Origin: Hylemonella sp.
GTDB lineage: Bacteria; Pseudomonadota; Gammaproteobacteria; Burkholderiales; Burkholderiaceae_C
Direction of reading: 5' to 3'
NCBI RefSeq assembly: GCF_027532185.1
Contig: NZ_JAPZSV010000002.1
Coordinates: 310,001-374,000, forward strand
DNA length: 64,000 bases
Shown: piece after piece, positions 1,352 through 50,789 of the stretch
Numbering within the stretch: the first letter of the stretch is position 1
Layout: the number at the start of each line of letters is the position of its first letter
The notes under the pieces: generated by a model
The model's database searches: none
What the model saw: the letters and a program-made list of their open reading frames with translations, nothing else
What the model was told of the DNA's origin: nothing
Position numbers and translations under genes: made by a program

Positions 1352-3693
1352 CAGCGGCTCTCCTTGCCGCGCCAGCCCGGCGCCAGGCGCAATGCATTGA
1401 CGACGACGAGCAGCGAACTGGCCGCCATGCCCAGACCGGCCAGCCAGGCCGGCATCCAGCCCACCACGGCCAGCGGCACGCAGACCGCGTTGTAGGCCAC
1501 AGCCCAGCCCAGGTTCTGGCGCACGATGCGCAGCGTGCGCCGCGCCAGGCGGATGCCCTCCTCCACCCGGGCCAGTTGCTCACCCAGCATCACGAAATCC
1601 GCGCGTGACTGCGCCAACGGCACGGCCCGCCCGAAAGCGATGGAGGCCTGGGCGCCCGCCAGGGCCGGTCCGTCGTTCAGGCCGTCACCCACGACCACGG
1701 CCTGGCGACCCGCCAGCCTTGCCTGTTGCAAGGCCTCCAGCTTGTCCTGCGGCGTGCAGCCGCCGAGCGCCTGGGTAATGCCCAGCTGCTGTGCCACGCG
1801 CGCCACGGCCTCGGGCGCGTCACCCGAAAGGATGCGCACCTCGATGCCCTGGGCCTGCAGCGCCGCTACGGTGGCCTGGGCGTCGGGCCGCAGGTCCTCG
1901 CCAAACTCGAAGGTCGCGAGCCAGCCCTGTGCATCACAGAGCACGGCATGCGGGCCAGCCACCGGCTGCGCCGGCACACCACAGTGCGCGGCCGAGCCCA
2001 GACGCAAGGTCTGCGAGGCCTCGTCGGCGGTCTGACGCACCTGCCCGGTGAGGCCGGCACCAGCCTGCTCCTGCACCTGCTCACTGAGCCAGGGCGCCAC
2101 GGCGTCCGCCTCGGCCGTGGCCTGTAGCGCGCGCGAGACCGGATGGAGCGAATGCCGCGCCAGCGCCGTCGCCTGGGCCAGCACCTGGCCGCGCGTGGCG
2201 CCTGCGCGCAGGCGCAGGCCCTGCAGCACGAGTGCGTCACGGGTCAGCGTGCCCGTCTTGTCGAAGATCACGAGGTCGGTGTGGGCCAGCGCCTCCAGCG
2301 CGCCGAGCCGGCGCACCAGCACCCCCTGACGCGCCAGGGTGCCTGCGGCCGCCAGCATGGCCGCAGGCGTGGCCAGCGAGAGCGCGCAAGGACAGGTGAC
2401 GATGAGCACGGCCACCGCCACCATGAGCGCATGCGCCGGATCCTGCGACCACCACCAGGCGGCAGCACCGGCCGCGGCCAGCAGCACACCGATAAGAAAG
2501 GGCCGGGCCAGCCGGTCCACCAGCAGCGCCAGCTGGGGCCGGCTCTGCGCAGCCTCCTCCATCAGGGCCACGATCTGGGCGTAGCGCGTGTCCTCTCCCG
2601 TGCGCTCCACGCGCACCCCTACGGCGGCGCTGAGGTTGTGGCTGCCGGCGATCACCGCCGCACCGGGGCCGCGCGGCAGCGGGCGCGACTCGCCGGTGAG
2701 CAGGGCTTCGTCGGCATGGGTCTGGCCTTCGAGCACGATGCCATCGGCCGGGAAGGACTCTCCGGGCAGCACGCGCAGCACGTCGCCCGGACGCAAGCGG
2801 TGCACGGCCACGCGCTCGAACTCACCGTCGGCGCGCTCGCGCAGCACGCTGTCGGGCAGGCGGTTCATCAGCGCATCCAGCGCCCCAGCGGTGCGCTCGC
2901 GCAGGCGCTGCTCCAGCCAGCGGCCGGTGAGCAGGAAGAAGACGAACATGGTCAGCGAGTCGAAGTACACCTCGCGACCGAAGAGGCCCTGCGGCTCGAA
3001 AGTACCCGCCGTGCTGACCACAAAGGTGATGGCCATGCCCAGTGCCACCGGCAGATCCATGCTGATGCACCGCTGCAGGATGTCGCGCCAGGCCGCGGCA
3101 AAGAAGGGCGTGCAGGAGAAGAAGAGCACGGGCAGCGTGATGACCCAGGAGGCCCAGCGCAGCAGCTGCTCCATCTCCATCGTGAGGTCACCCGGCTCCG
3201 CTACATAGGCAGGCCACGCGTACATCATGACCTGCATCATGCAAAAGCCCGCAAGCAGCCAGCGCCACAGCGACTTGCGGGTCTCCTTGCGGCGGCGCTC
3301 ACTGGCCAGCGCGTCCTGTGCCGGCACGGCGCGGTAACCGGCGCGACGCACGGCCTGCATCCACTCGGAGGGGCGCACGGCTCCGGCATCCCAGAGCACG
3401 CGCGCGCGCCGACTGCCGGCGCTGACGCTGGCGCTGCTCACGCCGGGCACGCGCCGCAGCGCGTCCTCGACATTGAGGGCGCAGGCTGCGCAGTGCATAC
3501 CTTCGATCAGCAGATGGGATTCCCAGCAGCCCTGCGTCTCGCTGGCGCCTGCCTGGGGCCGGCTGAAGCCCGACCACAGCTGGGGATCATCCAGCAGGCT
3601 TTCGCCCACCAGCCGGTCCGATGGGGCGACGGCCGCGGAGGCGCCAGCAGACGTGGCAGGCGGTGCGGCAAGACTGGCGGAGCTCATGGACAT
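1351..3693 (-). CDS. ccoI: cbb3 oxidase copper-transporting P-type ATPase CcoI
   Basis: P1B-type ATPase that exports copper across the inner membrane for insertion into the cbb3 oxidase copper site. It has about 780 residues. After a non-conserved Ala/Ser-rich N-terminus come a metal-binding HMA domain ([12 protein letters not shown], about residue 67), the transmembrane metal site [11 protein letters not shown] (about 434), the phosphorylation site DKTGTLT (about 477) and [10 protein letters not shown] (about 670). An in-frame TTG lies one codon upstream at 3696. I prefer the ATG at 3693, but ATG 3687 and a GTG near 3610 are alternatives, because the first 30 residues look unlike the family. 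It forms an operon with ccoS and ccoN. A perfect FNR box lies 31-44 bases upstream of the start. Confidence 0.95.
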
Positions 3694-3723
3694 CAAGCCT
3701 ATCGGGCCGAACCCGCCTCCTAC

Positions 3724-3737
3724 TTGATATGGATCAA
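3724..3737. promoter_or_regulatory. Perfect FNR/ANR box between ccoI and uspA
   Basis: TTGATATGGATCAA is an exact match to TTGAT-N4-ATCAA. Its centre (3730.5) is 69 bases from the uspA start and 37 from the ccoI ATG. A class II position (-41.5) would put a transcription start near 3772 for uspA, which fits. For ccoI the same geometry would fall inside the annotated coding start. The box therefore most simply serves the stress protein gene, with ccoI possibly using another geometry or a later start. Confidence 0.85.
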
Positions 3738-3799
3738 GACCATAGCAGAAGCATGTGACCTAAGCTAGGGGCACCGCAACAAAGCCTGAAGGAGTCATC

Positions 3800-4243
3800 A
3801 TGTACAAGCGCATCCTCGTCGCCACCGATGGCAGCACCCTCTCGAAGAAAGCCGTGAGCAGCGCCGTGGCCCTGGCCCAGCTCAGCGGCGCCGAGCTCGT
3901 CGCCCTCAAGGTGGTACCGCGCTACCCGCAGAGTTACTTCGAAGGCGGCCTGGCACTGCCGCTGAGTGACATCAACAGGATCGAGAAGCAGTGGACCACC
4001 CAAGGCCAGGCCGTGGTGGATGCCGTGGCCAAGACCGCGAAGGGCAAAGGCGTCGCGACCAAGGGCGTGGTCGTCAAGTCGGACCTGATCAGCGAGGCCA
4101 TCATCGCCACAGCGAAGAAGAACAAATGCGACCTCATCGTCATGGCCTCGCACGGCCGCAAGGGCATCAAGCGCCTGCTGCTGGGCAGCGAAACCCAGCA
4201 GGTCCTGACGCACTCGCACATTCCGGTGCTGGTCTTGCGCTGA
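3800..4243 (+). CDS. Universal stress protein, UspA family
   Basis: A single-domain cytoplasmic Usp of 147 residues. It starts MYKRILVATDGSTLS (the conserved N-terminal strand with the Asp that contacts ATP) and ends with the ATP-binding signature G-x2-G-x9-G-(S/T), seen as ASHGRKGIKRLLLGS, then HSHIPVLVLR. The presence of that signature suggests an ATP-binding member. A good ribosome site (GAAGGAG) precedes the ATG. The perfect FNR box upstream suggests induction at low oxygen, as known for Usp genes in FNR/ANR regulons. It is divergent from ccoI. Confidence 0.93.
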   Translation: MYKRILVATDGSTLSKKAVSSAVALAQLSGAELVALKVVPRYPQSYFEGGLALPLSDINRIEKQWTTQGQAVVDAVAKTAKGKGVATKGVVVKSDLISEAIIATAKKNKCDLIVMASHGRKGIKRLLLGSETQQVLTHSHIPVLVLR

Positions 4244-4269
4244 GGCAGCGCGCCGCAAACTGGTAAATT

Positions 4270-4290
4270 CCCGGGGGAACACACCCCGGG
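4270..4290 (+). promoter_or_regulatory. Hairpin covering the ribosome-binding region of the 4296 gene
   Basis: CCCGGGG (4270-4276), a 7-base loop, then CCCCGGG (4284-4290) form a perfect 7-bp GC stem ending five bases before the ATG at 4296. There is no separate Shine-Dalgarno sequence. The stem could limit translation or act as a weak terminator or processing stop after uspA. It has no U-tract. Confidence 0.4.
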
Positions 4291-4295
4291 ACACC

Positions 4296-5099
4296 ATGAA
4301 CATCGCGCGCCTCCTCCTCCCTCTTGCCCTGCTGCCGCTCGCGGCGCAGGCCCAGCCGGTCACGCTGCGCTCGGTCGACAGCAGCGAGCTGGGCGTGGAA
4401 ATCATGCAGCTGCGCTATGACGCCGGCAGCGGCAGCACGGCCTTCGAGCACGAGGGCAACAAGGTGGGGCTGATGTTCCGCTTCACCCAGGCCCTGAGTG
4501 ACAACTGGTACTGGGGCGGCGACGCCCGCCAGTCGCACGGCAACATCAACTACAGCAGCGCCAGCCGCGGCGAGAAAGGCGGCAACGCCGACGTCGTAAC
4601 CGAGGTGCGAATCACCGGCGGCAAGGACTATCCCCTGGGCTCGCAGCTGCTAGCCCCCTACTTCGGCCTGGGCTATCGCAAGCTCAGCACCGACCTCAAG
4701 GGCCTGACGAGCACGGGCGACGAAGGCTATCGCCGCCGCAGCCAGTACGTCTACCTGCCCCTGGGCCTGACCCACCGCCTGCAGCTCGGGCCCGAGGCAC
4801 GGCTGTCGAGCAGTTTCGAATACGACCTGCTGCTCGACGGCCGTCAGCAGTCCTTCCTCTCGGACGCCGACGCCACCTCAAACGACCCGGTCAACAGCCA
4901 GCGCAAGGGCTATGGCCTGAGGCTGAACAGCAGCTTCGAGACTTACCACTGGTCCATCGGCTTCTTCGTGCACTACTGGCGCATCGGCGCATCGGACGAG
5001 GCGCGTCAGTCCCTGGGCGGCGCTCCGGGGGCATTGGTCGTGGAGCCACGCAACAGCACGCGCGAAGCGGGCGTGCAGTTCCGGCTGCGCTTTCACTGA
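4296..5099 (+). CDS. Predicted outer-membrane beta-barrel protein, tandem paralogue 1
   Basis: A 267-residue exported protein of unrecognised family. A signal peptide (MNIARLLLPLALLPLAAQAQ) is followed by alternating hydrophobic and polar stretches rich in Tyr, Gly and Ser, typical of a small outer-membrane barrel. It ends VQFRLRFH. Obvious similarity to the next gene (shared YWG-D, LGSQ, GLG-R-L-SDL-G, GYRR-S-Y-YLPLG-THR, K-GLRLN and N-TRE-GVQ-R-RFH) shows a tandem duplication. It lies 52 bases after uspA and could be co-transcribed from the FNR-linked promoter. Function is unknown; a role in envelope response to low oxygen is only inference. Confidence 0.7.
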   Translation: MNIARLLLPLALLPLAAQAQPVTLRSVDSSELGVEIMQLRYDAGSGSTAFEHEGNKVGLMFRFTQALSDNWYWGGDARQSHGNINYSSASRGEKGGNADVVTEVRITGGKDYPLGSQLLAPYFGLGYRKLSTDLKGLTSTGDEGYRRRSQYVYLPLGLTHRLQLGPEARLSSSFEYDLLLDGRQQSFLSDADATSNDPVNSQRKGYGLRLNSSFETYHWSIGFFVHYWRIGASDEARQSLGGAPGALVVEPRNSTREAGVQFRLRFH

Positions 5100-44565: not shown

Positions 44566-45081
44566 ATGTTTGAGATGTTCCGTTCCTCGCGCAGCCCCTC
44601 CGGCCGTAACGCGCAATCCGACACCCCGTCAACGACGGGCTCCTCCATCCAGTCGCAGAACCCCATCAACTACCGCGACCTCGTGCGCATGGTGCTGCGG
44701 GACACCTTGCGCCTCAATGGCATCCCGATCGACTGGGTGGGCTGCGAGGTGATCCCGCGACCCCACAACGGCCAGGTCCAGACCTTCCAGATCAATCTCA
44801 TCGTCCACGCCTGGCACGAAGGGCTGTTGCGCTATGCGCCCCTGCTCAAGCAGCAGGTTCTGCAGGGCCTGCAGCATTTCGACCCGGCCAACAACCACAG
44901 CAACCACGTCATGGCGTGGGTGTTCGCCCCCAACTGCGGCTTCCCGCACACGCGTATGCCGGGACCGGCCTATTGGCGCGTGTCTTCCAGCGCAAGCAAG
45001 TTCGACCTGCCCCCGTCTCCCCACGACCAGGTGCGCGACGAGCAAGATCACATCCCCACGGTGCCCTCCCCGCTGCGCTAG
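44566..45081 (+). CDS. Uncharacterised protein
   Basis: A 171-residue cytoplasmic protein that I do not recognise. A Ser-rich N-terminus (MFEMFRSSRSPSGRNAQSDT) leads into a compact region: NYRDLVRMVLRDTLRLNGIP, WVGCEVIPRPHNGQVQTFQI, then LIVHAWHEGLLRYAPLLKQQ. The tail is Pro/Ser/Asp-rich. No signal peptide or helix is seen. A strong promoter and a terminator bracket it as a single-gene unit. The response regulator gene follows on the same strand. Confidence 0.75.
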   Translation: MFEMFRSSRSPSGRNAQSDTPSTTGSSIQSQNPINYRDLVRMVLRDTLRLNGIPIDWVGCEVIPRPHNGQVQTFQINLIVHAWHEGLLRYAPLLKQQVLQGLQHFDPANNHSNHVMAWVFAPNCGFPHTRMPGPAYWRVSSSASKFDLPPSPHDQVRDEQDHIPTVPSPLR

Positions 45082-45175: not shown

Positions 45176-45838
45176 TTGAAGATACTCGTCGTTGATGATC
45201 ACGCCCTGATCCGCGAAGGCCTGCGTCAGGTCCTGCGCGGGCTGGAAGAGGATGTGGAAGTGTTCGAAGCCGGCTCCTGCGCCCGGGCCTTCGAGCTCGC
45301 CTTGCAGGAACCGGAACTCGATCTGGTCCTGCTGGACTACCACCTGCCCGACATGAGCGGCCTGGAAGCCCTGGACATCTTCGCGCGCCAGCACCCGGCG
45401 CTGCCCATCATCGTGATCTCGGGCTCGGTCAATCCGCGCGTCATGCAGCAGGTCATGAACAAGGGGGCCGCGGCTTTTCTCACCAAGTCAGGTATGAGTG
45501 ACGAACTCCTGTCGGTGACGCGGCTGGTGCTGGCCGGCGGCGTGCACATGCCGGCGCTGGCGCCGCTCGCCTCCGAGGAGGGCGCTGCCGACGCCCCACC
45601 CCTGCTGACACCGCGCCAGGAAGAAGTGCTGCAGCTGCTGCTCGACGGCTACACCAACAAGGAGATCGGACGCATGCTCTATCTCTCCGAGGAGACGGTG
45701 AAAAACCATGTGAGCAGCATCCTGCGTTGCTTCGGCGTCACCACACGCACCCAGGCTGTGCTGGTCGCCCGCCGCCATGGCTATGCCGGCGCGGGACGCT
45801 CGCAGCCGCTGACTCCTGGTGACCTCGGCGCCGCCTGA
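45176..45838 (+). CDS. NarL/FixJ-type response regulator
   Basis: A 220-residue regulator: receiver domain (LKILVVDDHALIREGLRQVL, phospho-acceptor Asp in VLLDYHLPD, Lys in FLTKSG) and a LuxR-type helix-turn-helix (LTPRQEEVLQLLLDGYTNKE, then IGRMLYLSEETVKNHVSSIL). I take the TTG at 45176 as the start: the domain begins there, and the upstream ATG at 45134 lies in the terminator just downstream of the U-tract. It converges on the hybrid kinase gene with a 2-base gap and is its likely partner. Confidence 0.9.
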   Translation: MKILVVDDHALIREGLRQVLRGLEEDVEVFEAGSCARAFELALQEPELDLVLLDYHLPDMSGLEALDIFARQHPALPIIVISGSVNPRVMQQVMNKGAAAFLTKSGMSDELLSVTRLVLAGGVHMPALAPLASEEGAADAPPLLTPRQEEVLQLLLDGYTNKEIGRMLYLSEETVKNHVSSILRCFGVTTRTQAVLVARRHGYAGAGRSQPLTPGDLGAA

Positions 45839-45840
45839 AC

Positions 45841-47775
45841 TCAACCCGGCGCCGGCTGCGGCCGTGCCAGACGGCGGATCAGGGTGCGCAGCTTGGCCGG
45901 GCGCACCGGCTTGTGCAGCAGCGGCAGGCCCGCATCACGGCTGGCCTGGATCAGCTCCGGGTCGGTGTCGCCACTCATCAGGCAGGCCGGCAAAGGCCGC
46001 TCCAGCTGCGTGCGCAGCCTGTGCAGGGTCTGCATGCCGCTTTCGCCTGCCCGCAGACGGAAGTCGCTGAGCACCAGATCGGGGACGAAGCCACCGTCCA
46101 GCACCGTCAGCGCGCCCTGAAGTCCTTCCACGACGGCCACCACGCAACCCCAGGAATCGAGCAGGCCACGCAGGGCCTGGGCCGACTGCCGGTCGTCCTC
46201 GATGACCAGGATGCGCAGGCCGCGCACATCGTCCACCTGCTGGGGCTGCTCCGCGGCTGCCATCAGGGCCTGCAGATCGCCCGCGGGCGCCAGCGGCAGC
46301 TCGATGCGGAAGCGGGTCCCGTGCCCCGGCACAGAGCAGAGCTTGAGCTCGTGCCCGAGCAGGCGCGCGGTGCGATCGACGATGTTGAGCCCGAGGCCCA
46401 GGCCCTTGCTGCGGTCGCGCTCGGGGTTGCCGATCTGGTAGAACTCACGAAAGATGTCATGCTGGTGCTCGGCCGGTATGCCCACGCCGGTGTCCCAGAC
46501 CTCCAGCCACAGATGACTGCCGCCACGGCTGCGGCGGCAGCCCACGAGCACGCCACCGTGCCCGGTATATCGCAGGGCGTTGCTCACCAGATTGAGCAGA
46601 ATGCGATGCAGCAGCGTGGGGTCGCTCAGCACCCAGAGCGTGCTGTCGCGCACGCGCAGGCGCAGGCCCTTGTCGGTCGCCACGGGCATCAGCGCACCGC
46701 GCAGCTGCTCGAACAAGGGCCCCAGCGGCACCGGCTGCAATTGCACCCGCACAGCGTCCGCGTCCAGGCGCGAGATGTCCAGCAGCGCATCCAGCAGATC
46801 CTGCATGGCGCGCACCGATGCCTCCAGGTTGCCGATCAGATGGCGCGTCTCACGGTCATGCGGCAGCTGGGCCAGACGGGCGACGAACATGCCCAGGGCA
46901 TGGATGGGCTGACGCAGGTCGTGGCTGGCCGCTGCGAGGAAGCGCGACTTGGCGCGCGTGGCCGTCTCGGCCTCTTCCTTCTTGCTGCGCAGCTCCGCGG
47001 TGGCCAGGGTCACCCGGCGCTCCAGTTCATCCCGTCCCTGCTGCAGATGCTCGGCCATCTGGTTCAGCCCCTGCTGCAGATCGCGCAGGGGATCGTCGGG
47101 CCGGACTTCACCACGCACGCTCAGCTCGCCGCTGCCGATGCGCTCGATCATGCGCGAGACGCGCAGGATGGGCCGGATCACCCCACGGCCGATGCGCACC
47201 GCCAGCACGCTACCGAACAGCAGCCCGCCGAGGGTCACGGCCAGGCCGATGGCCAGCATGTCCTGGCTGCGCGATACCACGCCCGCACGCGACACTTCCA
47301 TCACCACATGGCCCAGGGGGGGCGCATCCTCGCCGCCCGCGCGGGACCGCCCCTCGAACAAATCGTCGAGCTGCAACTGCGAGGGGCTCACGGGCTGCAC
47401 CAGCAGATCGTGTCCGGTCCTGGCGTCCACCCAGTGCTGTTCCTGCATGCCCAGCGCCGGCAGCACCACCTGCCCGGTCCAGCCCGCAATGGCCAGGGTC
47501 TGCCCCTGAGCATCGAGGATGAGCACGGAGCGCACGTCGGATTCGCGCAAGGCACCCGCGGCGATCGACTGCAGGCTGCTGGTGTTGGCCGAGAACAGGC
47601 CGTACTCGCTGGCACTGGCCAGCTGGCGAGCCAGCGAGCGGGCACGCTGCTGATGCGCCTCGTCCAGATCGGCATAGCGCCCAGCGAGAAAGACCGAGGA
47701 CAGCAGCACCGCCACCAGGGTCACGGGCAGCAGCGCAGCCAGCAGCATGCGCGCGCGGATGTCGAGAAATCTCAT
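45841..47775 (-). CDS. Hybrid sensor histidine kinase
   Basis: A 644-residue membrane kinase: helix 1 (about 10-31), a periplasmic sensor region (32-165), helix 2 (about 170-192), HAMP (DDPLRDLQQGLNQMAEHL), coiled coil, H-box SHDLRQPIHALGMFVARL (about residue 285), ATPase domain (SNALRYTGHGG, WDTGVGIP, KGLGLGLNIVDRTARLLG) and a C-terminal receiver (LVIEDDRQSAQALR, acceptor Asp in VLSDFRL, Lys in LLHKPVRP). No HPt domain is seen. Its ATG overlaps the stop of the periplasmic binding protein gene, so it probably reads that protein as input. Confidence 0.93.
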   Translation of the reverse strand: MRFLDIRARMLLAALLPVTLVAVLLSSVFLAGRYADLDEAHQQRARSLARQLASASEYGLFSANTSSLQSIAAGALRESDVRSVLILDAQGQTLAIAGWTGQVVLPALGMQEQHWVDARTGHDLLVQPVSPSQLQLDDLFEGRSRAGGEDAPPLGHVVMEVSRAGVVSRSQDMLAIGLAVTLGGLLFGSVLAVRIGRGVIRPILRVSRMIERIGSGELSVRGEVRPDDPLRDLQQGLNQMAEHLQQGRDELERRVTLATAELRSKKEEAETATRAKSRFLAAASHDLRQPIHALGMFVARLAQLPHDRETRHLIGNLEASVRAMQDLLDALLDISRLDADAVRVQLQPVPLGPLFEQLRGALMPVATDKGLRLRVRDSTLWVLSDPTLLHRILLNLVSNALRYTGHGGVLVGCRRSRGGSHLWLEVWDTGVGIPAEHQHDIFREFYQIGNPERDRSKGLGLGLNIVDRTARLLGHELKLCSVPGHGTRFRIELPLAPAGDLQALMAAAEQPQQVDDVRGLRILVIEDDRQSAQALRGLLDSWGCVVAVVEGLQGALTVLDGGFVPDLVLSDFRLRAGESGMQTLHRLRTQLERPLPACLMSGDTDPELIQASRDAGLPLLHKPVRPAKLRTLIRRLARPQPAPG

Positions 47776-48677
47776 GGGCCACGCTCCAGTCGGCGCAGAC
47801 GCTCTGTCAGGTTGGCGGCGTCGAGCCGCAGGCCGAGCGAGCGCGCCACATGCTCGTTCACGCTGACGTCGAACTGCAGCGGAAACTGCGGTTGGCCCAG
47901 CGGCTGGCCCTGCAACACGCCGCGCGCCAGCACACCGGCCTGCTGGCCGATCTGACGCGGCGTCGAGTGCACGGCCATCAGGGCACCGGCGCGCACATAG
48001 GCTGGCGAGAAGGCCAGCATGGGCACTTGCGCCCGGAACGACGTCAGCAGGATGTTCTGGATGCTGTTGCTGTTGTAGATCTGCGGGTCAGCCAACGCCA
48101 GCAGCACATCAGACTCATCGAGGATCTTCTTCAAGCCGGCAAAGACCGGCTCTTCGGGCCGCACCGGCACCCCCACCATCCGCAGTCCGCGCGCCTGGGC
48201 CGCAGCCTCCAGTGCGGCCTCATTGGCCACGGAATCCGGCCCCCAGAGCACGCCGACGCGGCGCGCCTGAGGCAGGGCCAGCCGGATCAGGTCAAGCTGC
48301 CGGCCCGGCGGCTGGTTCAGGTAGAGCGCAGAAAACGAGGCGCCGGCGCGCCGCCCCGACTCGCGCAGCACGCGCTCGAAACTGGCACGCGGCAACAGGG
48401 TGCACAGCACCGGCGCCGGCAAGGCCTGCTGCGCCAGCTGGCTGCAGGCCTCGGTGCCCAGCGCCACGTACAACCGCGGGCCAGCGCCGCTGTAGGTCGG
48501 CAACTCCGCCAGCTGCAACTGCAAAACCTCGCGGCGTGCAAGCTCGGCGACCACCGCGTCCGCCGCCTCCTGGTAGGCCGGACTGCGCTCGCTGCTGACC
48601 AGGAGCACCTCGTTGGCACGCGCCCCCAGGGCCAGGAAGGCCAGCAAGACCAGCAGGGACAGCGGCGCCAGACGCAT
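47772..48677 (-). CDS. Periplasmic substrate-binding-like protein (PF04392 type)
   Basis: A 301-residue exported protein with a signal peptide (MRLAPLSLLVLLAFLALGAR) and a type I periplasmic-binding fold: GPRLYVALGTEACSQLAQQA, ARRVGVLWGPDSVANEAALE and MLAFSPAYVRAGALMAVHST. It resembles the ABC_sub_bind family, but no permease or ATPase gene is present. It lies between a TonB receptor gene (5-base gap) and the hybrid kinase gene (4-base overlap), suggesting a sensor subunit rather than a transporter part. No lipobox is visible. Confidence 0.85.
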   Translation of the reverse strand: MRLAPLSLLVLLAFLALGARANEVLLVSSERSPAYQEAADAVVAELARREVLQLQLAELPTYSGAGPRLYVALGTEACSQLAQQALPAPVLCTLLPRASFERVLRESGRRAGASFSALYLNQPPGRQLDLIRLALPQARRVGVLWGPDSVANEAALEAAAQARGLRMVGVPVRPEEPVFAGLKKILDESDVLLALADPQIYNSNSIQNILLTSFRAQVPMLAFSPAYVRAGALMAVHSTPRQIGQQAGVLARGVLQGQPLGQPQFPLQFDVSVNEHVARSLGLRLDAANLTERLRRLERGP

Positions 48678-48682
48678 GCGGC

Positions 48683-50629
48683 TCAGTGCTCCACCTTGAG
48701 CTGGACGAAGACCTGGCGGACGACGCGGAAACTCGGCATGAAGTCGCGGTACGCAGGGCTCAGGCTCTGGCCCACCAGGGCCAGCTGGGCCCGGCTCCCG
48801 CCGATCTGCAGGGACTTTGCGACACGCGCGTCGGTCCGGTAGTAGGCCGGTTGAAATCCATTGGAGTCACCGGGCAGACGCGTGGCGTCCGCCTCGTGCT
48901 GGCTCAGGCTCGTCTCCCATCCGCGCGGCAGTTGCTGCATCCACAGCAGCGTGTGGCTGCCATAGCGTCCCACGAGCACGCCTCCGTAGGACTGTCCGCT
49001 GGAGTAGCGCGAGCTGGCATAAACGAAACGGCCCCCCTGCCAGGGGCGCCAGTTGAGCTGGGTCTCATAGCCACGGATGCGGAAGCTTTCGTCGTTCACG
49101 TAATCTTTGACGGTGTTTTCCAGGGTCCCGCTGCCCGCCTGGGTGAACGCGGCCGTCTCGGCAATCAGGCCCTTGACCCGTTCGTCGAAAACCCGCAAGT
49201 CGAGGGTGACATCCCGCGCGGGGGTCTCGAAAAGATAGCCGAACTCGCGCGCTTCCACCCTTTCCGACAGGACGTTGCCCGTCGAGACATAGGTCGAATC
49301 GAGCAGCACACCGCCGTCGAAGTAACGCACGTTGGCGTACTTCTCATAAATGCTGGGCGGCCGGAAGGCTCGGGAGTAGCCGGCACGAAGGGTATGCCCC
49401 TCGGCGGCATTCCAATTGAGCATCACCCGTGGCGATGCGTTTCCACCTCCCAGATCACTTCTCTCCAGCAGCGCCCCCGCGTTGAGCAGCAAGGCAGGCC
49501 GCAGACGCCATTCGACGTTGGAAAACAGACGTGTGAAATCCGTGGAAAAGGACGCGTCCGTGTTGTACAGCGGACGCGATCGCACAACCTCCCGCCGCAG
49601 CTCGGCGCCCCAGACATAGCGCAGATTGCTGTCGACCCGGACCGTGTGCTGTGCACTCAGATTCGAATTGCCGGCCCGGCCTCCGAAGTCCACCGTGATG
49701 CGAGGAACGCCCGGGGAAATGTAGGGAAAGTTGTCTCTCACCGCTTCTTCGGTGTGGGACGCCTGGACCACCAGATCCTGGTCCGCATCGAGATTGCGGC
49801 GCCAGTCCAGCTGCGCGTACGAGGTCTCGATGCGCCGGGTCCGGACATAGTTGTCGGCTTTGTCCGCAAAGCCGACGCCGGCGTCGATCAGACTCTGCCC
49901 TGTGCGCAACTCCAGCAAGTCCCGTGGGCCGTTCCGTACGTCTGCACGCAAATTGACCCGCTGGACCCGGCTTGAACCGCTGGTGCCTTGGAGGCCGTCG
50001 TCATTCCGACCGTCAGCGCTGATCCGGAATCGGGCCCGGTCGTCGCCCCAGCCCACCCGAACCCCCTGGTCCGCGACGCCGTTCTCGCCCCGGGCAAGCT
50101 GTACCGCCGTGCCCTGAGTGTCGGTCAAGTCGCGCGTGACGATGTTGATGCTGCCCAGAAAGGCCCGCGCGCCGTAGGCGGCGGAATTGGAACCGCGGTA
50201 GACCTCGATGCGCTCGATGTCTTCCAGTGCCACCGTCTGCAGGCCCGGCCCGGTACTGCCCCGCAGATAGGTGGAATAGACCGAACGACCATCCACCATG
50301 ACCTGGATATGGTTGGAGTAATCGCTGAGCGTGGTGTGGTAGCTGCCCTGGGGCGTGTTGCTCTCGAAGGAGTTGGTCACGCGGAACCCCGGCACCAGCC
50401 GCAGCAGATCGGCCACGTCGCGCGCGCCGCTCATGCGGATCATCTGCCGGTCGATGATGGTCACCGCGCCGGGCGTCTCGTCCAGCCGCTGCGGCAGGCG
50501 TGACACCGACAGCACCACCGGGACATCGTCGAGGTAGTCCTTTTCGCTCACGGCGGCGGACTGCGCGCCGGCCAAGGTACTCAGGCCGTACAGCAGCAAC
50601 AGAACAGAGGGTTGGCGACAAGATTTCAT
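48683..50629 (-). CDS. TonB-dependent outer-membrane receptor
   Basis: A 648-residue receptor: signal peptide (MKSCRQPSVLLLLYGLSTLA), TonB-box region (DDVPVVLSVSRLPQRLDETP), plug domain (MSGARDVADLLRLVPGFRVT, IERIEVYRGSNSAAYGARAF) and a 22-strand barrel. It is short for a siderophore receptor and nearer BtuB or colicin-receptor size. The C-terminus is QLKVEH rather than an aromatic residue. The ligand is unknown. It heads the operon with the binding protein and hybrid kinase. Confidence 0.9.
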   Translation of the reverse strand: MKSCRQPSVLLLLYGLSTLAGAQSAAVSEKDYLDDVPVVLSVSRLPQRLDETPGAVTIIDRQMIRMSGARDVADLLRLVPGFRVTNSFESNTPQGSYHTTLSDYSNHIQVMVDGRSVYSTYLRGSTGPGLQTVALEDIERIEVYRGSNSAAYGARAFLGSINIVTRDLTDTQGTAVQLARGENGVADQGVRVGWGDDRARFRISADGRNDDGLQGTSGSSRVQRVNLRADVRNGPRDLLELRTGQSLIDAGVGFADKADNYVRTRRIETSYAQLDWRRNLDADQDLVVQASHTEEAVRDNFPYISPGVPRITVDFGGRAGNSNLSAQHTVRVDSNLRYVWGAELRREVVRSRPLYNTDASFSTDFTRLFSNVEWRLRPALLLNAGALLERSDLGGGNASPRVMLNWNAAEGHTLRAGYSRAFRPPSIYEKYANVRYFDGGVLLDSTYVSTGNVLSERVEAREFGYLFETPARDVTLDLRVFDERVKGLIAETAAFTQAGSGTLENTVKDYVNDESFRIRGYETQLNWRPWQGGRFVYASSRYSSGQSYGGVLVGRYGSHTLLWMQQLPRGWETSLSQHEADATRLPGDSNGFQPAYYRTDARVAKSLQIGGSRAQLALVGQSLSPAYRDFMPSFRVVRQVFVQLKVEH

Positions 50630-50789
50630 GGTCAGGATTCCAGGGGATGCTTGCTTTTCTTGTTCCCTGCCCTGATTCTGCCCTGCCCGGCTCGGCCTGA
50701 TCCTCAGGGAAGACCGCCATCCGTGGCCCTGTCGCGCGTTTTGAACACCCCCGGCATCAGGGGCTTGCCGGCTGGGCCACAATAAGGCC

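Follow-up and report, generated by a model that had tools for sequence, protein, structure and literature searches.

A TonB-dependent receptor, a binding protein, a hybrid kinase and a response regulator as a probable trans-envelope sensing module, and its relation to GacS/BarA

Four adjoining genes of the window (the whole 64-kb stretch of DNA analysed here) probably form a single trans-envelope sensing module, in which a TonB-dependent receptor (TBDR) captures a ligand, a periplasmic binding protein (SBP) binds it, a hybrid kinase responds and a NarL-type regulator provides the output. This chain is the best reading because SBPs of this family divide into sensor and transport types, because the sensor-linked ones are linked to TBDRs, because outputs turn over and because the block recurs. 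Its components are:

48683..50629, minus strand: TBDR, plug and barrel (Pfam PF07715, 75.5 bits; PF00593, 81.3 bits)
47772..48677, minus strand: SBP of the ABC_sub_bind family, sensor-linked subfamily with a DPxIYN motif (PF04392, AF2 model and motif table)
45841..47775, minus strand: hybrid sensor histidine kinase, sCache_4-HAMP-HisKA-HATPase-REC (Pfam)
47284..47679, minus strand: periplasmic sCache_4 domain of the kinase, GacS/BarA type (PF09984, residues 33-164, 43.6 bits, cut-off 22.1)
47599..47610, minus strand: SEYG motif of the sensor, residues 56-59 (invariant in a 17-row alignment)
45176..45838, plus strand: NarL/LuxR-type response regulator, REC and GerE domains (PF00072, 81.8 bits; PF00196, 61.9 bits)

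The open-reading-frame list and the sequence place the genes in the order TBDR, SBP, kinase, with a gap of 5 bases between the first two and an overlap of 4 bases (ATGA) between the last two. The regulator gene is convergent to the kinase gene at a distance of 2 bases. Coordinates and sequence thus agree with an earlier note on this DNA, which had described this tight coupling and tail-to-tail arrangement and proposed a sensing module whose binding protein has no permease and whose route differs from the FecIR type. No permease or ABC ATPase gene adjoins the SBP gene in the window (open-reading-frame list and Pfam), and none is linked to any of 103 sensor-linked SBPs surveyed (see below). The receptor has no Pfam match to the STN signalling domain, so its route is not of the FecA–FecR–FecI type. 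At the thresholds applied, the SBP is the only match to PF04392 in the entire genome.

Co-occurrence of the genes in relatives, on which the earlier note had staked its proposal, survives: matches to all four together are found in 13 of 17 related loci, with identities of 41–96%, and three of the other four loci are interrupted by contig ends. The regulator gene is broken into two frames in one locus (L002) and truncated by a contig end in another (L006). Two loci (L011 and L012) keep the block where moaA and hppA were not found nearby. Of two other same-genus genomes sampled, one has no SBP and the second has it split into two frames. Four-gene co-occurrence exceeds chance. That the genes are a chance operon of neighbours without a functional link is extremely improbable, given that the module recurs across Burkholderiales and other Gammaproteobacteria with differing flanks and gene orders, and that the SBP–kinase pair is also present in a Zixibacteria metagenome-assembled genome (MAG; L018).

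Two further elements lie at the start of the receptor gene:

50489..50527, minus strand: TonB-box-like stretch DVPVVLSVSRLPQ near the mature receptor start (by eye in the translation)
50671..50682, minus strand: putative promoter-like element GGCAGAATCAGG, conserved in the upstream alignment of the receptor gene; it may be just an ordinary −10 region

Stretches similar to DVPVVLSVSRLPQ were seen by eye in the N-termini of other module receptors. The GGCAGAATCAGG pattern has three exact copies genome-wide. Close relatives share an element, GGCARAATCRGG, in front of the TBDR gene. Footprinting a regulon with it was rejected because this pattern resembles a generic −10 region and has 43 genome hits with at most one mismatch (3 exact) versus 24 for its reverse. 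No common element was seen before the regulator gene in an alignment of 12 relatives. The regulator starts with TTG, and the aligned position in 12 relatives is TTG, GTG or ATG.

The top NCBIfam match of the receptor is the TOL_0244 family (NF053590, 175.7 bits), as it is for 10 other module receptors scanned, all scores being 121–252 bits against a cut-off of 645. OmpS of Alcanivorax dieselolei as an alkane sensor, and an increase of TOL_0244 on n-C28, are reported in passages of PMC6304351. A hydrophobic ligand was nevertheless dropped as a candidate: the likeness is one of best family, and with scores so far under the cut-off a ligand inference from it is unsafe. In one locus (L056), TBDR and SBP share a 982-residue frame that still contains a signal-peptide-like stretch, and a frame error is therefore likelier than a natural fusion.

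The SBP scores 55.6 bits against PF04392 (cut-off 25.9), and its single-chain AF2 model (pLDDT 90.7) has 3lkv, CD0873 and TrpX (3lft) as its nearest solved folds; LuxP from the LuxP–LuxQ complex (2hj9, TM 0.49) is among many binding-protein fold matches. At a conserved motif, permease-linked SBPs carry DN (N in 30 of 31, D in 29 of 31), whereas the kinase-linked motif has D in 70 and P in 46 of 79 and is two residues longer. Since the sensor-linked SBP departs from the transport type here, the hint from TrpX and CD0873 at an aromatic amino acid ligand was not used.

SBP loci were surveyed across genomes, scoring up to six candidates in each. At family level, contexts were examined for 31 of 32 non-own rows, the remaining row being the latter part of a split gene. 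At class level they cover 60 of about 130 places (every second rank, one swapped away from a contig end), and at phylum level 40 of about 110, hand-picked for family spread. Among 148 loci, 103 adjoin a GacS/BarA-like input half, 31 a permease or ATPase, none both and 14 neither. A TBDR lies near 83 of the 103 sensor-linked loci versus 1 of the 31 permease/ATPase-linked ones; the other 20 sensor-linked loci, some interrupted by contig ends, have none within 3.2 kb. In 77 of 87 sensor-linked loci (part of the 103), the SBP gene overlaps the sensor gene or ends fewer than 15 bases before it. Four loci (L127, L146, L246 and L255) have TBDR–SBP without a detected sensor. The outputs beside the SBP vary, comprising hybrid kinases, HisKA_3 kinases, GGDEF and GGDEF-EAL proteins. 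A reverse search used a sensor HMM built from these module loci with HAMP included, and many of the weaker among its more than 150 matches span little beyond HAMP. Of 29 loci taken from the best 30 of these matches, 20 have an SBP gene beside the sensor, including two (L124 and L142) with the SBP on its far side, and 9 have none. When 10 sensor proteins of other loci were scanned, Pfam sCache_4 exceeded its cut-off in 3 and matched weakly in another 3, and the remaining 4 had no match.

In a tree of the 148 SBPs, a single change divides sensor-linked from permease-linked proteins once the 14 unassigned rows are left out, and outputs change at least seven times. With these rows included, permease-linked SBPs are separated from all others by five changes, in a tree with several long branches. 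The single change, the lack of any SBP linked to both kinds of partner, the motif difference, and the retention of the SBP beside the input half when outputs switch to GGDEF or GGDEF-EAL all speak against an uptake operon with a private regulator. Under that reading, TBDR and SBP would serve the import of a nutrient by way of a permease encoded elsewhere, and the kinase would sense the ligand with its own Cache domain. We consider such an operon quite unlikely, even though the SBP family otherwise consists of TrpX-type transporters and DctB and CitA, with their ligand-binding Cache-like domains, are among the folds that weakly match the sensor.

Judged from sequence distances (58 rows kept, 7 near-duplicates removed), the SBP shares its evolutionary history more with the kinase input half (r = 0.905) than with the kinase core (r = 0.555). 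This was not taken as contact coevolution of SBP and sensor. The TM2-HAMP segment (r = 0.861) matches the periplasmic part alone (r = 0.845 at equal column number), and the correlation is therefore read as a sign that the parts were inherited together, not that they touch.

The AF2 model of the kinase input half is single-Cache-like (pLDDT 83.1). An E(Y/F)(G/A) motif is present in 16 of 17 SBP-linked versus 4 of 16 SBP-less BarA-type sensors, a set of 33 sequences that includes near relatives (for example L348-L350, L300/L301 and L351/L352). SEYG is not a general mark of SBP partners and is clear only among BarA-type sensors, because 43 other SBP-linked kinases keep its E in 26 cases and its Y in 11, with L instead in 19. 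The kinase core is nearest to NahK/ErcS (NF041832, 348.7 bits, below the cut-off of 400). The kinase scores 209.3 bits with the BarA/GacS model NF008318 (cut-off 890) and has no Pfam match to an Hpt domain. For the regulator, the nearest NCBIfam models are ErdR (118.9 bits, cut-off 390) and MadR (117.9 bits, cut-off 300), and GacA/UvrY (NF007018) gives 72.4 bits (cut-off 280); all three scores are below their cut-offs. A NarL-type regulator gene lies near just 32 of the 87 sensor-linked loci, so this pairing is weaker outside Burkholderiales.

For docking, signal direction, phosphotransfer and ligand, we infer a chain of the following kind. The TBDR would bring a scarce ligand across the outer membrane, and the SBP, lacking a dedicated permease gene, would bind it in the periplasm. 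Either liganded or empty, the SBP would dock on the sCache_4 domain and, through HAMP, set the balance of kinase and phosphatase activities. Output would pass to the NarL-type regulator, by phosphotransfer that may be direct or run through an unlinked Hpt protein. In a variant of this chain, the SBP-fold protein binds no small ligand and acts as a YfiR-like brake, keeping the sensor repressed until it is pulled off by an event at the outer membrane, be it receptor occupancy, TonB action or envelope stress. DUF4154 (YfiR) genes do occupy a similar slot, with a sensor-like neighbour in 25 and a TBDR-like neighbour in 17 of 30 loci, although the sensor scores beside them are low (26–77 bits) and may be due in part to HAMP. 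According to PMC4887326, YfiB sequesters YfiR and thereby frees YfiN. We hold the brake to be unlikely, as many SBP residues are near-invariant in the alignment and the modelled SBP fold still appears close to those of ligand-bound TrpX and CD0873.

The capture–binding–kinase chain may extend to GacS/BarA. BarA-model scoring covered up to two candidates per genome, and matches were kept by hand as full-length if they scored at least 600 bits and began no later than the first few positions of the model, sensor-less ones being excluded. An SBP gene is adjacent in 24 of the 42 matches so obtained. Two of the 24 reach the cut-off of 890 (G468, 919.6; G370, 907.5) and the other 22 score 601–815; Pseudomonas-like GacS proteins without an SBP are also under it (847 and 832). 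Among up to six SBP candidates per genome, one SBP-less BarA genome (G310) has an SBP on another contig and none is listed for the other 17. The markers cysM, rlmD, relA, pdxJ and acpS, which we take to be the barA/gacS neighbourhood, occur near 16 of the 103 sensor-linked loci, and 11 loci have at least two markers when Era and RecO are also counted. One of the loci (L407) reads cysM-TBDR-SBP-BarA-acpS-pdxJ. All 7 kinases scanned from the 16 barA loci have the architecture sCache_4-HAMP-HisKA-HATPase-REC-Hpt. SBP–BarA pairs without a TBDR occur (L400 and L401), and two SBP-less loci (L282 and L288) carry RelA and CysM/RlmD. In Pseudomonas-like genomes, the TBDR–SBP–kinase trio lies beside fabA, at the position of PA1611, and GacS itself (L300 and L301) has neither an SBP nor a SEYG-type motif. 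In the E. coli control, BarA is above the cut-off and there is no PF04392 match.

We tentatively propose, as a plausible reading that falls short of probable, that the input of GacS/BarA in a large share of Gammaproteobacteria is a dedicated SBP encoded just upstream and usually fed by a TBDR. This input would have gone from gacS/barA in the E. coli and Pseudomonas lineages, with Pseudomonas keeping it on PA1611, and the window module would be a betaproteobacterial cousin with another kinase core. The single module of the earlier note stands as regards the block, the missing permease and the missing STN domain, but is too narrow: beyond this genome outputs vary, and the SBP-linked sensor of many Gammaproteobacteria appears to be GacS/BarA itself. 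A passage of PMC7695008 calls the GacS signal unknown, and a table of PMC5812489 enters that of PA1611 as 'Unknown'. According to a passage of PMC3462791, a test of PA1611 as a regulator of fabAB showed no effect of its deletion on a fabA fusion. No link of GacS/BarA to a TBDR and SBP is described in the titles or abstract openings of the open-licence PMC matches shown. With SBP and TBDR genes beside GacS/BarA and at the PA1611 position, the question of the GacS and PA1611 signals becomes testable: if receptor and SBP feed these kinases, ligands could be fished with purified SBP instead of screening whole-cell extracts.

Several known systems resemble the module in part. GacS/BarA and PA1611 have the sCache_4 sensor type in common with the window kinase, and an SBP gene, usually with a TBDR, adjoins the former in many Gammaproteobacteria and the latter as the fabA-linked kinase; the window kinase differs from GacS/BarA in its lack of Hpt and its NahK/ErcS-like core. 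In LuxP–LuxQ and TorT–TorS, a periplasmic binding protein acts on a hybrid kinase instead of a permease, a contact that is predicted for the window proteins; these systems have another SBP family, other sensor domains and no known outer-membrane receptor in the unit. YfiBNR likewise signals in three parts from outer membrane through periplasm to inner membrane, but YfiR is not an SBP, the output is GGDEF, and the outer-membrane part is a lipoprotein in place of a TBDR. FecA–FecR–FecI and PfeA–PfeRS tie a TBDR to gene control. The former differs by the STN domain that the window receptor lacks and by FecR and sigma-factor genes, of which none is among the genes adjoining that receptor. PfeA–PfeRS is a precedent for a TBDR with two-component control, and to our knowledge units of the Pfe type have no SBP. 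If the proposed chain is right, signalling from a TBDR through an SBP would be a route in addition to FecR/FecI and to direct sensing by kinases, one whose varied outputs include c-di-GMP enzymes.

The module comprises four genes in a window drawn from a 3.33 Mb genome:

48683-50629, minus strand: TonB-dependent receptor (TBDR), with Plug and barrel and without STN
47772-48677, minus strand: binding protein (SBP), ABC_sub_bind
45841-47775, minus strand: hybrid kinase, sCache_4-HAMP-HisKA-HATPase-REC, without Hpt
45176-45838, plus strand, convergent to the kinase: response regulator, REC-GerE

Successive genes are separated by 5, -4 and 2 bases, which bears out the tight coupling of the first three and the tail-to-tail regulator described in an earlier note. 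By NCBIfam, the kinase core is nearest NahK/ErcS (348.7 bits, under the cut-off of 400), the regulator nearest ErdR/MadR and the TBDR nearest TOL_0244, also under their cut-offs. A 171-aa protein encoded at 44566-45081, adjoining the regulator gene and kept in several relatives, has no match in Pfam or NCBIfam at E 1.

A search with the module returned 17 related loci, from Burkholderiales and other proteobacteria (including Curvibacter, Hylemonella, Rhodoferax and Rhodocyclaceae) and one Zixibacteria MAG; three of them (L003, L004 and L016) end at contig ends. The co-occurrence in relatives expected by the earlier note was found, with all four genes matched in 13 of the 17. The Zixibacteria locus (L018 9992-13053), a distant relative, has an SBP-kinase pair with a 4-base overlap and no TBDR. 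Close relatives share moaA/hppA flanks, and these were not found at L011 and L012, so the block is able to move as a unit. In 27 of the 150 genomes sampled from the family, the SBP had a match at E 1e-10, a count that takes in transport types. One of two other same-genus genomes has no SBP match; in the other (G014; L052 about 3650-4584) the gene is in two frames, through decay or an assembly error. At L056 (1-2951), TBDR and SBP share a single 982-aa open frame, probably a frame error and possibly a fusion.

We extended the 17 loci by places from the family (31), the class (60) and the phylum (40), giving 148 SBPs, the neighbours of which were annotated by HMMs made from these same loci. A gene with a GacS-like input half (its sensor part) adjoins 103 SBPs, a permease or ATPase 31, both none and neither 14. 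A TBDR lies within 3.2 kb of 83/103 sensor-linked SBPs, versus 1/31 permease-linked ones. The outputs of the sensor genes are HisKA kinases in most cases, HisKA_3 kinases in L061 and L062, GGDEF in 8 of the 18 sensor-linked loci from the family and GGDEF-EAL in L069, L117 and L119. A Pfam scan of ten sensor proteins agrees with the assigned outputs; sCache_4 was over the cut-off in three, weak in three and not found in four (L056, L061, L062 and L069), so the input type of these four depends on the HMM from module loci.

On a quick tree of all 148 SBPs, with several long branches, one change accounts for the sensor/permease label once the 14 unassigned rows are left out; compared with every other row, the permease group takes five, and outputs change seven times or more. 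Permease-linked SBPs carry a motif (D in 29/31, N in 30/31); at the same site kinase-linked SBPs have D in 70/79 and P in 46/79, with two extra residues. A reverse search with the sensor alignment gave, among the matches listed, 29 non-own loci: 18 with an SBP in the fetched flank, two with it on the kinase's other side (L273 and L287, visible in L124 and L142) and nine with none. In L124 and L142 the gene order differs, the SBP gene following that of the kinase. L246 and L255 hold TBDR-SBP pairs with a NarL-type regulator gene ~3.3-3.4 kb away; no sensor gene was detected adjoining either pair.

The AF2 model of the SBP is a confident one (pLDDT 90.7) and is nearest 3lkv, CD0873 and L-Trp-bound TrpX, with LuxP from the LuxP-LuxQ complex lower among the matches. 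That of the input half (pLDDT 83.1) is a single-Cache-like domain flanked by long helices, with WalK as top match. Across 58 kinase loci, pairwise SBP distances correlate with those of the input half (0.905), TBDR (0.807) and kinase core (0.555), the last falling to a partial correlation of -0.10 given the input half. The correlation is 0.845 for the periplasmic part alone, with column numbers equalised (130), and 0.861 for TM2-HAMP; owing to the latter, we take the correlation as joint inheritance and not as proof of contact. SBP and input half are read here as a jointly inherited input cassette.

The most valuable result, open to direct testing, is a link to GacS/BarA. A cysM-like gene lies near the module in 13 neighbourhoods. 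By marker genes, 16 of the 103 sensor-linked loci, 13 with a TBDR, lie in a cysM-rlmD-relA / acpS-pdxJ neighbourhood, which we take to be that of barA/gacS. SBP genes, mostly with a TBDR gene, occur there in many Gammaproteobacteria (L400, L401, L405, L407, L109, L132 and others); L407 reads cysM-TBDR-SBP-BarA-acpS-pdxJ-recO-era. All seven kinases scanned from the 16 loci have BarA architecture, Hpt included, and in NCBIfam they score highest against BarA, at 443-781 bits; GacA/UvrY is over its cut-off in 12 of 16 genomes checked. Among 369 class genomes, 42 full-length BarA-model matches (at least 600 bits) were taken, 24 with an adjacent SBP gene and 18 without. Two SBP-adjacent BarAs exceed the cut-off of 890 (G468, 919.6; G370, 907.5), and no TBDR was found at these loci. 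The top-scoring match (G287) is SBP-less, as is, outside the 42, the Pseudomonas-like GacS of L300, even when 12.5 kb around it are considered (L404). The sensor of this GacS matches PDB 5o7j, the P. aeruginosa GacS detector domain. The E. coli control genome has BarA over the cut-off and no PF04392 match. The SEYG motif (residues 56-59 in the window's kinase) was compared across 33 BarA-type sensors: E(Y/F)(G/A) is present there in 16/17 SBP-linked versus 4/16 SBP-less ones (Fisher p 6e-5, for sequences that are not phylogenetically independent). L355 and L364 retain the motif, with no SBP found nearby, and it is looser in 43 other SBP-linked kinases (E 26/43, Y 11/43).

In four Pseudomonas-like loci (L233 and L235-L237), FabB, FabA and GpsA genes flank kinase-SBP-TBDR, in L235 as fabB-fabA-kinase-SBP-TBDR followed by divergent gpsA; this is the position of PA1611-PA1613. 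PMC3462791 places PA1611 beside fabA and describes a PA1612-PA1611 operon; by synteny, the SBP and TBDR are thus predicted to correspond to PA1612 and PA1613, respectively. PMC5812489 enters the PA1611 signal as unknown and describes links to HptB and RetS, and PMC4866733 terms PA1611 structurally related to GacS. In G802, a Pseudomonas-like genome, GacS lacks both the SBP and the SEYG motif; another kinase there, GacS-like and fabA-linked, has the two.

The best and a probable explanation is the chain that the earlier note proposed: capture by the TBDR, followed by SBP, kinase and regulator. Its main rival, a YfiR-like brake, is itself a form of this chain and seems rather unlikely. At L370-L399, DUF4154 (YfiR) genes have TBDR-like genes on one side and genes for a sensor kinase or GGDEF protein on the other. 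Among the loci listed, these 30 include 25 with a sensor-like and 17 with a TBDR-like neighbour, the sensor scores being low and perhaps partly due to HAMP. These loci are a parallel family of three-part modules, with DUF4154 in a slot like that of the SBP. The module itself appears to be a novel form of kinase signalling coupled to an SBP.
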